Below are positions 4,398 through 34,827 of a stretch of DNA of 39,061 nt, one piece after another. Within the stretch, counting starts at the first letter, position 1. Each line of letters opens with the position of its first letter. The notes beneath the pieces are model-generated. The model was not told the origin of the DNA and searched no databases. It was given only the letters and a program-made list of their open reading frames with translations. Both the position numbers and the translations under genes were made by a program. This DNA is from an uncultured Spirochaetaceae bacterium (lineage in GTDB: Bacteria > Spirochaetota > Spirochaetia > Sphaerochaetales > Sphaerochaetaceae), in contig CALXYI010000011.1 of the NCBI GenBank assembly GCA_944392935.1, positions 1-39,061 on the forward strand. The letters are read 5' to 3'.

Positions 4398-4699
4398 ACC
4401 TGTAATTCAACACTGATTCGGCAGGGCTTTCAAGAGCCCTCTCCCTTCTTGGTGGGCTTTCCCATCTCTCCCTTTCCGGGATTGCTGGCATCACGCGCAT
4501 ACCGCAGGGGCAATCAGGAGGATTCCATGATCATGCAGCGCTGGAGGCAGATTGGAAATTGACATTGGGAAGGATCATCGTGATATCAGATCCCAGCTGT
4601 TGACACTTGCCCTCGAATCCTGTGATGAATCCTGCATTTCAGGGAAACTGCCAGGAGTCAGCTTCTGGCAATATGATGATGACATGCCTATGTCCTGAC

Positions 4700-4753
4700 T
4701 GGTGTCCACCCTGCATATAATGACGCATGAAAGCAGATCCGTGGAAAGCTGTT
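4700..4753 (+). repeat. 54-bp imperfect direct repeat, copy A
   Basis: This block aligns without gaps to 6676-6729 with 42 of 54 bases identical. The conserved core is TGGTGTCC, CTGCATATAAT, GCATGAAA and GGAAAGCTGTT. Copy B lies immediately downstream of tRNA-Leu, so copy A may mark a second, older boundary of inserted DNA. Confidence 0.6.
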
Positions 4754-4923: not shown

Positions 4924-5407
4924 TCAGCTTCCTTGCTTCGTCAATGTCGCTGTAGTAAGTCCGCTCGCACTTGGTGAAGAACTCTGGTTGTTGATTGTCA
5001 TGATTGCTGTTGTCTCGCTCTGCTTCCTTATCACGATATCGGAACTCTGGGAATATCCATTTCTCGATACAGAGTAGCTGACCCTGTACAGCTCATCCGT
5101 CGCTTCTTCAGAGAAAGAAGTCATGTATGGCTCATTCAGCTTCAGATTCGTTGCTAGGTCGTAATTGAGCTGTAATTGTGGGATGCTTACGTATATCTGG
5201 CCATTGTTGAACCGCAGTTCAATGGCTCCCGATGATGACGGATCAGAGATTGTTCCCGTCCATGTGCCTTCGAGCCAGCTCTTGTAGCTGAAGCGGTCCG
5301 GTACGCTTGCAGGCGTCTTGTCATTGCACGAGGTGATAACGGCAACGGCCATTATCAGGACGATTGCGAGCAGGGCATATCTGCCCCCCCCATGAGGTTT
5401 TCTTCAT
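4924..5407 (-). CDS. Lipoprotein with G8 tract after the start codon, out of frame here
   Basis: An excellent start site (GGAGG at 5414-5418, six bases before the ATG at 5407) reads MKKTSW and then enters eight G residues (5384-5391 on this strand). With eight G the frame ends after 24 codons. With seven (or ten) G the frame continues as GGRYALLAIVLI, then MAVAVITSC, then a body running to 4924. That is a complete lipoprotein signal with lipobox ITSC and a mature domain of about 135 residues. The mature part contains WLEGTWTGTISDP, AIELRFNNGQIYVSIP and IVIRKQSETTAIMTIN, suggesting a small lipocalin-like beta barrel. The alternative start at 5352 has no binding site and no basic N-terminus. 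As sequenced the gene is OFF, through either phase variation or a sequencing error. Confidence 0.75.
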
Positions 5408-5765: not shown

Positions 5766-5820
5766 TAATCCCCAGAACGAGACATGAACCCGTACGGCCT
5801 TGCGGCCAAAGGATTTTAAG
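5766..5820 (-). repeat. Partial tRNA-Leu copy, probable distal attachment site
   Basis: These 55 bases match 6748-6802 of the intact tRNA-Leu region with two mismatches (5784 and 5790), in the same orientation. The copy runs from the anticodon loop through the variable arm and T-arm to just past the 3' end, and lacks the 5' half. That is the portion of a tRNA gene normally used as attachment site by tyrosine recombinases. Confidence 0.8.
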
Positions 5821-5925: not shown

Positions 5926-6603
5926 TCAGAGGTGTTTTCTGCTAATCTTCTTGTAGAAGTTCTTCATGAATATCTGTCGGGTTAGGAAGAAATCCCTTTC
6001 AGATTTTGTCGGTCTATGCTCGTTCCACCTGATTCTGGATTGTTCAAGAGTACATATAAAATCAGCAACCTGCAGAAGCCTATAATCTTTCTGATACGCC
6101 GTACGGAAATCCATCCTGCTTCCAAATATCTTTCCAGACGTATCTCTAAGAATCTTACTTATGATTGACTGACCGCAGTCGTAATACACTATGATTTCTT
6201 CAAAGTTTTGGAAGTATTCAAGGTGGTCTTCGATAAAGTTCCTTATCTGATGTCTGAAAGCTTCCTCAATTTGCTTATCTTCCTGATAAAATGTCTTTGT
6301 AACAGAAAAAGATGCATAAGCAATTGGAAGCTGTTCTACAAATCTTGAGAATATCCTGAAGATATGCATCCTGTCTGTCATAAGAAGATCTTCAAATGGT
6401 TCATCTTGTCTTATAAGAGGCGATGTATGGATAAAGGGAACATCACAGTTTATATCTGAAAGTCTCTTATTCAATGATTGGAGATACAATGAAATATCAT
6501 CATTCTGATTATGGAGAACCATAGTGAGGCAATATGTAGGATTCTGTCTGTTTGAAAGATTCAGGTTACCGCTTTCATCGATATGGATTGACAGTACAGA
6601 CAA
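5926..6603 (-). CDS. DUF3800 domain protein
   Basis: The 225-residue protein has the DUF3800 signature: IHIDESGNL at residues 6-14, IIVYYDCGQS in the middle and LLQVADFICTLEQ near the C-terminus. The family is predicted to adopt an RNase H-like fold with the N-terminal Asp-Glu and the late Ala-Asp as acidic residues, and is common on mobile elements and near defence genes. Its activity is not established. The start is TTG at 6603, with AAGGGG at 6612-6617 upstream. The gene is clearly richer in A+T than its surroundings (one sample 60-base line has 23 G+C, against 34 in an ilvD line), which points to acquisition from elsewhere. It is the only gene between the two tRNA-Leu repeats. Confidence 0.8.
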   Translation of the reverse strand: MSVLSIHIDESGNLNLSNRQNPTYCLTMVLHNQNDDISLYLQSLNKRLSDINCDVPFIHTSPLIRQDEPFEDLLMTDRMHIFRIFSRFVEQLPIAYASFSVTKTFYQEDKQIEEAFRHQIRNFIEDHLEYFQNFEEIIVYYDCGQSIISKILRDTSGKIFGSRMDFRTAYQKDYRLLQVADFICTLEQSRIRWNEHRPTKSERDFFLTRQIFMKNFYKKISRKHL

Positions 6604-6626
6604 GACAAGCCCCTTACAAAGAAATT

Positions 6627-6645
6627 GCCGGAGGCAGCCTCCGGC
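6627..6645 (-). promoter_or_regulatory. GC-rich hairpin in the DUF3800 leader
   Basis: GCCGGAGG and CCTCCGGC form a perfect 8-bp stem with a 3-base loop, 24 bases upstream of the TTG start. On the minus strand AATTTCTTTG follows. It could be a terminator isolating the gene from tRNA transcription or a structured leader. Confidence 0.45.
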
Positions 6646-6675
6646 TCTTCGGCGGGGACTCGCCCCTGTTCGGCT

Positions 6676-6729
6676 TGGTGTCCGACCTGCATATAATATA
6701 GCATGAAAAGAAACTCAGGGAAAGCTGTT
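6676..6729 (+). repeat. 54-bp imperfect direct repeat, copy B
   Basis: This is the partner of 4700-4753, with 42 of 54 bases identical and no gaps. It ends 21 bp from the 3' end of tRNA-Leu, inside the proposed island. Confidence 0.6.
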
Positions 6730-6750
6730 CTGGCTTTCTGGATGGGATAA

Positions 6751-6834
6751 TCCCCAGAACGAGACTTGAACTCGTACGGCCTTGCGGCCAAAGGATTTTA
6801 AGTCCCTTGTGTCTACCGATTTCACCATCTGGGG
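6751..6834 (-). tRNA. tRNA-Leu (anticodon TAA)
   Basis: The minus strand folds as a class II tRNA of 84 nt. The acceptor stem is CCCCAGA/TCTGGGG with discriminator A. The D-arm is GGTGAAATCGGTAGACACA, the anticodon stem is AGGGA/TCCTT around CTTAAAA (anticodon TAA), the variable arm is GGCC GCAA GGCC, and the T-arm is ACGAG TTCAAGT CTCGT. CCA is not encoded. The D-arm and long variable arm match bacterial tRNA-Leu(UAA). One G-U pair occurs in the anticodon stem. The 3' half is duplicated at 5766-5820. Confidence 0.95.
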
Positions 6835-6842
6835 ATGATGCT

Positions 6843-34104: not shown

Positions 34105-34827
34105 ATGGCGTATGTTTATGTGGCTGATGGGGATGCACCCATACGGCTCAGGCTCCAGCAGTATCTTGGGATCTACGGCTATTCGGCAGTCGGGTTCGAT
34201 TATCTCTCGGACCTTGGGCGTGCGCTGCAGAAGACAGCGCCGGATCTCCTTGTCATGGAGCTGGAATTCGAGGATGGAGACGGGCTCTCGTTCCTGAAGC
34301 AGGTTGCGCAGAAGTACCGCTTCCCGGTGATCATAGCATCCGCACGCAGCAGCGAGAGCGACAGGATAATGAGCTTCGAGTTCGGATGCGATGATTTCGT
34401 TGCCAAGCCCTATTCGATGCTTGAGGTGACGCTCCGCGCCTCTGCGGTCCTGCGCCGCCGCCGCATGAAGGCAGCTGAGAACTCGAGGTGGTATATCCGT
34501 TCCACATGCCTTTCCATCAACTGGGATGCCCACATCGCGACGCTCTCGCATATAGATGGCGGATCTACAGGGGGGGGGGTACAGGAGATACGCTTCACCG
34601 CCTCGGAGTGGAAGATCCTCGTCTTCCTCGTCTCCAATGCAGGCCGCCTCGTATCGAGGCTGCAGCTGCTGCAGTCATGCTTTCCAGAGAGTCTCGAGAG
34701 CTACGACAGGATAATAGACACGCACATAAAGAACATCCGCTCCAAGTTCGGCCCCGGAGGGTCGGAATGGATAGAGACCGTCAGGGGCTACGGCTACCGC
34801 TTCCGCGGTTCCCTGTCGCCAATGTGA
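34105..34827 (+). CDS. Atypical OmpR-type response regulator with G10 tract
   Basis: The 240-residue protein has a receiver domain (1-118) and a winged-helix DNA-binding domain (about 135-236, ending DTHIKNIRSKF and ETVRGYGYRF). The phospho-acceptor position is Glu52 (LLVMELEFEDGDG), where its downstream paralogue has Asp52. The conserved Thr is Ser79, while Lys101 is kept. Glu can mimic phospho-Asp, so the protein may be active without a kinase. A run of ten G encodes Gly156-Gly158 and part of Val159 in a hairpin turn that the paralogue lacks. The gene is in frame here. Loss of one G would end the protein before the recognition helix. GGGAG abuts the ATG directly, so initiation is weak or leaderless. 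Confidence 0.88.
   Translation: MAYVYVADGDAPIRLRLQQYLGIYGYSAVGFDYLSDLGRALQKTAPDLLVMELEFEDGDGLSFLKQVAQKYRFPVIIASARSSESDRIMSFEFGCDDFVAKPYSMLEVTLRASAVLRRRRMKAAENSRWYIRSTCLSINWDAHIATLSHIDGGSTGGGVQEIRFTASEWKILVFLVSNAGRLVSRLQLLQSCFPESLESYDRIIDTHIKNIRSKFGPGGSEWIETVRGYGYRFRGSLSPM
34570..34579 (+). repeat. G10 mononucleotide tract inside a regulator gene
   Basis: Ten consecutive G lie between TACA and TACAGGAG. The reading frame passes through as GGG GGG GGG G. With nine G the frame stops at TAA after 43 codons. With eleven G it runs out of frame to about 34901. Either change removes the DNA-binding domain. Confidence 0.9.

Follow-up and report, generated by a model that had tools for sequence, protein, structure and literature searches.

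The window analysed here, which is the whole 39,061-b contig C11 (55.4% GC) of a 1.80-Mb draft spirochaete genome in 66 contigs (94% complete), carries on its minus strand a lipoprotein gene that is interrupted, within the signal peptide, by a run of guanines. A Shine-Dalgarno sequence read from the DNA, GGAGGA (5418-5413), is spaced 5 nt 5' of an ATG start codon (5407-5405) that opens the n-region MKKTSW, and the tract, C8 on the plus strand and G8 on the minus strand (5384-5391), begins 16 nt after the A of this ATG, at the junction between the n- and h-regions. The h-region and lipobox, RYALLAIVLIMAVAVITS-C, follow at 5382-5326, with ITS-C as the lipobox and the Cys codon at 5328-5326, from which a mature domain of 134 aa extends to the terminal TGA (5328-4924). 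The frame that encodes the lipoprotein, GRYALLAIVLIMAVAVITSC-NDK..., extends for 152 aa without a further stop, bounded by a TGA overlapping the ATG at 5407 and by the TGA at 4926-4924, and differs from the frame of the ATG, whose product at G8 is MKKTSWGGQICPARNRPDNGRCRYHLVQ-stop, a peptide of 28 aa. The components of a bacterial lipoprotein signal, a Lys/Arg-containing n-region, a hydrophobic h-region and a lipobox Cys, are thus all present by motif but lie in two frames, MKK... in one and LLAIVLIMAVAVITSC in the other; the Cys is unchanged in all six aligned homologues.

The earliest ATG, GTG or TTG of the lipoprotein frame is at 5352, with none between the upstream stop and this position. 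Because the codon at 5352 has no Shine-Dalgarno sequence and lies only 8 residues ahead of the Cys, there is no good internal start that would rescue the signal peptide at G8. As the ATG frame ends at 28 aa and no start precedes 5352 in the lipoprotein frame, the assembled allele is OFF for the lipoprotein. Frame arithmetic shows that the two frames are joined when the tract length is 1 modulo 3. The initial annotation had described an excellent ribosome binding site and ATG followed by eight G that throw the lipoprotein out of frame, with seven or ten G restoring it, and each of these statements holds for the frames and product given above. No clear promoter was found directly upstream of the gene. 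A second ATG (5393-5391) shares the first G of the tract, has no Shine-Dalgarno sequence and, at G8, is in another frame than the lipoprotein; for it to serve as a weak start, the tract length would have to be 0 modulo 3. Such tract-edge ATGs, which occur in the window and in genomes G010, G012, G022, G032, G040 and G042 of the same genus, were considered as a graded high/low/off switch and rejected, since they are in no consistent frame across genes and hence are no general design. At one locus in G010 (L193) the ATG is fused to a G8, and it is the tract-edge ATG that is in frame and the upstream one that is not; by eye, the open frame there, with several hydrophobic stretches, resembles a sugar-transporter permease.

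Sequence searches with the mature domain returned no Pfam or NCBIfam family and no sequence relative in the PDB. The AlphaFold2 model (six homologues; pLDDT 91.3, pTM 0.84) consists mostly of strands, and VIA-align matched it to 5yvf with a Z score of 11.8 (114 aligned residues, rmsd 2.9 Å), to the DUF3598 protein 2o62 with 11.3, to nitrobindin with 9.9 and to fatty acid-binding proteins (FABPs) with about 9.6. The best Foldseek E value was 2.3e-3, none being at or below 0.001, and Tp0751 of Treponema pallidum appears twice among the Foldseek matches, at ranks 8 and 10. The mature domain is therefore predicted to form a calycin-like (lipocalin, FABP or nitrobindin-like) antiparallel beta barrel, a fold that alone shows no function.

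A 55-bp direct repeat (96% identical; 5766-5820 and 6748-6802), corresponding to the 3' part of a tRNA-Leu gene (6750-6835), flanks a DUF3800 gene (5926-6603), a segment with the appearance of a small cassette that integrated at the tRNA and that has no integrase. A further direct repeat of 110 bp (70% identical) lies beyond the lipoprotein (4644-4753) and beside the tRNA-Leu (6621-6729), and the lipoprotein may sit within an older insertion adjoining the tRNA. At the contig end, positions 1-127 match the beginning of contig C39 exactly, and in C39 a G11 follows, immediately ahead of another gene; this identity is probably an assembly-graph overlap (k=127) at a repeat.

Guanine runs as such are ordinary for the window. 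Overlapping G7 matches number 9, against 6.8 (sd 3.3) in shuffled copies, and three maximal G/C runs of at least 8 compare with 1.2 in Markov copies, a number reached in 9 of 100 copies, so that a G8 is not rare under the dinucleotide composition. What lifts the tracts above chance is the distribution of their lengths together with their location. Run lengths in the window are two-humped: there are 190 runs of length 4 and 26 of length 5, lengths 6 and 7 are absent, and lengths 8, 9 and 10 occur once each. The 1.80-Mb genome contains 19 runs of at least 7 (16 of at least 8), where a dinucleotide model of this window that ignores codon structure predicts about 233 (57); long G runs are therefore depleted in the genome, and many of the remaining ones are found at the starts of genes. 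Promoter spacers account for eight of the 19 (seven follow TTGAC and one follows TGGAC), and a further two are in lipoprotein signal peptides, at an equal relative position.

The second of these signal-peptide tracts belongs to a paralogue on contig C16, MEKRRIIFF-G7-VLFLVLIMATALTVSC, which is in frame. Among 48 genomes of the genus, the lipoprotein had matches in four, its own included. The homologue in genome G018 has a near-identical signal peptide, TLLAIVLVMAVAVITSC, behind a G10 at the equal position, and is likewise out of frame from its ATG. Fixed frameshifts or additional stop codons in such relatives had been named in advance as evidence against switching; the G018 gene has instead its own tract length with an intact frame behind it. 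The 100-bp stretch from Shine-Dalgarno sequence to lipobox is 80% identical between the window and G018, whereas the mature parts share about 30% protein identity and gave no blastn match. Thus, what the two genes share is the switch-plus-signal end, and such near-identical 5' ends on diverged mature domains suggest that a switch cassette is conserved, or used repeatedly, as the exposed part diverges. A homologue in G045, 44% identical (MNRKSVFHIAAVLILALALIVSC), has no tract, showing that the family does not depend on the switch, and a second G045 match and the G009 match are also tract-free. The dN/dS of the window gene against G045 is 0.28, which is weak evidence of constraint because dS to the homologues, about 2 or more, is saturated. 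No same-species copy of the lipoprotein was found in the genome-contig and viral-contig collections.

The same layout recurs across lipoprotein genes of the genus. A scan of the collected loci for a tract of at least G7 with a Shine-Dalgarno start ahead and a lipobox behind yielded 28 distinct genes before curation, of which one (L236) was dropped, being of promoter type with its true lipoprotein start further downstream. The remaining 27, in 19 of the 48 genomes, have G7-G11 between n- and h-region; 12 are in frame (ON) and 15 out of frame (OFF). Two further loci of the genus (L206 and L220), in which the layout is visible by eye, failed the lipobox rule and stand outside the 27. Among 206 distinct tracts of at least G7, start and lipobox flanked 28 on the G strand and none on the C strand, a control that is biased in so far as the loci were partly gathered by ATG-before-tract patterns on the G strand, the lipobox part alone being unbiased. 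Within the family, the SD-ATG-tract pattern occurs in 20/48 genomes of this genus, 5/16 of a second genus and 3/75 others. One second-genus match (G056) belongs to a lipoprotein group shared with G038 and in another (G054) the tract immediately precedes the start of a lipoprotein; the remaining three, and all three in the other genomes, are not lipoprotein-like. Pfam families were recognized in 8 of 17 scanned switched proteins and in none of the other nine; BspA-type LRR_5, Big_2, List_Bact_rpt (Flg_new) and GLUG are among the domains that follow the switched signals.

It should be emphasized that raw pattern counts were rejected as sufficient evidence, the reversed controls being positive as well. 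GGAG-N-ATG-N-G8 was found in 22/48 genomes against 23/48 for its reversed control, which resembles the promoter-type layout, and ATGAA-N-G8 in 26/48 against 11/48, with many of the forward matches being promoter-type tracts that have a chance ATGAA. As the SD-ATG-tract counts do not exceed the reversed control, it is the lipobox and frame tests that carry the argument.

Support from frames comes in particular from pairs of homologues in which a difference of one G flips the frame. Between G022 (G10, OFF) and G041 (G9, ON) there are, apart from the tract, seven internal gaps in the coding sequence, and between G032 (G10, OFF) and G038 (G9, ON) there are six; every one of them has a length divisible by three; these counts leave out leading and trailing excerpt gaps and one gap before the Shine-Dalgarno sequence. 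The dN/dS values of the two pairs are 0.46 and 0.58, respectively. In G040, a single species has four paralogues with near-identical 5' ends and tracts of G10 (ON), G9 (OFF), G10 (OFF) and G11 (OFF), the second G10 paralogue having one extra T ahead of the tract; there is also a fifth copy, located at the end of a contig, which stands outside the ON/OFF classes.

Taken together, the sequence evidence argues that the G8 is a genuine translational ON/OFF contingency locus and part of a larger poly-G phasome, a reading to which we give a probability of roughly 85%. A change of one unit at this position breaks or joins the reading frame; a G8 is within the range capable of slippage (about G8 or more), the other members having G7-G11; length varies among relatives with the frame otherwise kept, as seen in sister genes and in G8 here against G10 in G018; and the coding sequence behind the tract is intact and to some degree constrained (152-aa frame, the weak dN/dS of 0.28 against G045, pLDDT 91). 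The contingency-locus layout proposed in the initial annotation is thereby supported by relatives, with G018 OFF at G10, the paralogue of the same genome ON at G7 and the 27 genes of the genus in mixed states. Against a switch count the length of the G8 itself, near the lower limit for slippage, the draft state of the assembly and the tract-free homologues.

Transcriptional slippage can arise at homopolymer runs, and slippage of RNA polymerase or of the ribosome on the G8 might yield some full-length protein, giving a low constant level of lipoprotein rather than ON and OFF states. This is compatible with a contingency locus and not exclusive of it, but we regard it as unlikely, since tract lengths and frames vary freely among homologues and paralogues, which is unexpected if one length were programmed. 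It could also be argued that the true tract is in frame and the gene simply ON, the eighth G being an error of assembly or consensus. The window is indeed one contig of a 66-contig draft, and the 127-bp sequence common to two contig ends is what a k=127 assembly graph would give. However, 15 of the 27 comparable genes, from separately assembled genomes, are out of frame, as expected from free switching, and in the coding-indel comparisons the frame is broken at the tract only; moreover, even with the tract one G off it would still be of the switching type. Such an error is thus quite improbable as an account of the locus. That the gene is dying behind an old frameshift that does not revert is very hard to sustain. 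It is true that the assembled allele cannot be translated through the tract and that the G018 homologue is out of frame in the same way, but the tract lengths of these two OFF genes differ, ON members exist, the paralogue of the same genome among them, and the 152-aa frame has no other stop, a good Shine-Dalgarno sequence, a lipobox and a well-modelled domain. Finally, the notion that the tract merely encodes glycine or a leader, with the real start at one of the two ATGs available (5393-5391, overlapping the tract, or 5352), can be set aside almost entirely, as the former is outside the lipoprotein frame at G8 and varies in frame in other genes, and the latter lacks a Shine-Dalgarno sequence and would place 8 residues, all uncharged, ahead of the Cys, an arrangement that does not make a working lipoprotein signal.

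In the proposed contingency mechanism, replication slippage would add or remove guanines at the point where the positively charged N-terminus of the signal peptide meets the hydrophobic core. Of the three frame classes, one would join ATG, signal peptide, lipobox and the 134-aa calycin-like domain into an exported, lipid-anchored protein, the ON state. At G8 the ribosome would start at the good Shine-Dalgarno/ATG and terminate after 28 codons, releasing a peptide that is presumably inert. The population would then be a mixture of ON and OFF cells, keeping the gene behind the tract under selection, and we propose that the gene stays intact since there are always some cells in the ON state. Surface display and its benefit, which may lie in evasion of phage, host immunity or competitors, are likewise suppositions, and the lipoprotein would be one unit of a wider poly-G switched set in this spirochaete clade.

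The other tracts of the window suggest that switching may extend beyond signal peptides. On the plus strand, a G9 (157-165) lies between TTGACA (at 142) and TAGTCT, upstream of a lipoprotein (MKRISIVLLAVAMLFAFASC) with its ATG at 205, so that the promoter TTGACA-N9-G9-TAGTCT in the stretch 142-205 has its tract in the -35/-10 spacer, the placement known from T. pallidum promoters and resembling its tp0126 and tpr switches; the tract at 5384-5391, in contrast, is coding and 3' of both Shine-Dalgarno sequence and ATG. TTGAC-N-G8 occurs in at least 38 of the 48 genomes against 5/48 for the reversed pattern, and is the sole pattern that stands out by count (matches were counted per genome, those on the minus strand repeating once per extra G). 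Near relatives differ in length at such tracts: L044 and L046 have G9 and G8 in flanks that are 97.8% identical, L125 and L139 have G11 and G9 (92%), and L132 and L138 have G10 and G8 (86%). A scan of genome contigs for TTGACA-N6-TACC-G8 gave 93 stretches (L098-L190), 62 titled as spirochaetes and 31 mostly as Lachnospiraceae and other Firmicutes. In most of the 97 promoter sites scanned, TAnnnT directly follows the tract, whose length is 8-11 and most commonly 9 (57 sites); by our own rule a lipoprotein-like ORF is downstream of 59. Poly-G spacer promoters may be present in gut Firmicutes too, for example at neighbouring genes of CALXBQ010000046. Since the promoter layout is shared with Candidatus Ornithospirochaeta, recorded in a chicken-gut study, and with Bullifex porci, recorded from the pig gut, the host of the present locus is probably also a gut organism.

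The third tract, a G10 on the plus strand (34570-34579), belongs to the gene of an OmpR-type response regulator (34105-34827), where it keeps the frame and falls in the linker between the domains. The orthologue in G018, 75% identical, has a G9 at the equal position, also in frame, and seven further relatives inspected (L274-L280) have no run of G6 or more. Slippage in the linker would remove the DNA-binding domain, making a phase-variable regulator possible. We lean, by a narrow balance, towards a layered phasome in the genus, in which G8-G11 tracts in promoter spacers, with TTGACA on one side and a TAnnnT -10 on the other, act on one set of lipoproteins, frame switches in signal peptides on another with adhesin-like domains (BspA LRR, Big_2, List_Bact_rpt), and the linker tract, found in two species, could switch a regulon, the cell surface being a random combination of these states.

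Most knowledge of poly-G phase variation in spirochaetes comes from the agent of syphilis, an organism that is difficult to study. Should a large phasome exist in probably commensal relatives, random surface switching would be a general spirochaete strategy that goes beyond immune evasion by a pathogen, and harmless organisms and public metagenome reads would be at hand for measuring switching rates and selection. A practical caution also follows: in genomes of this sort, a gene with a frameshift in its signal peptide should be annotated as a pseudogene only after the tract has been inspected. Literature searches listed no paper that deals with phase variation in spirochaetes of the Sphaerochaeta, Ornithospirochaeta or Bullifex type, and a term search of PMC12236494 found neither 'phase variation' nor 'poly-G'.

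The kind of locus described here is already known; what is new is its place within a genus-wide set of switched lipoproteins. In T. pallidum, according to PMC7864442, 17 poly-G tracts were analysed and 76% were clearly length-variable, with tracts at tprE/G/J, tprL (lengths of about 7-11) and tp0126, and with ORF-internal tracts near the start of tp0257 (+29), tp0216 (+60), tp0969 (+56) and tp0479 (+95), of which tp0257 and tp0216 were minimally or not variable. The present system is similar in phylum and in having tracts of 8 or more G at genes for outer-membrane and other proteins. In contrast with the well-studied promoter tracts of T. pallidum, however, the tract here is in signal-peptide coding sequence, acts through the reading frame and recurs in unrelated lipoproteins. 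In the translational poly-G/poly-C contingency genes reported for Neisseria hmbR/hpuAB (PMC3786947) and the Campylobacter phasome (PMC6321876), a homopolymeric tract within the ORF likewise sets ON or OFF by frame; these are other phyla and other proteins and no homology is claimed. Similarly, in the gut commensal Bifidobacterium breve a surface structure, the sortase pilus, is governed by replication slippage at intragenic G tracts (PMC9187656); that switch concerns pilus gene clusters of an actinobacterium and was followed by deep sequencing, whereas the proposed spirochaete switch was read from assembled genomes.
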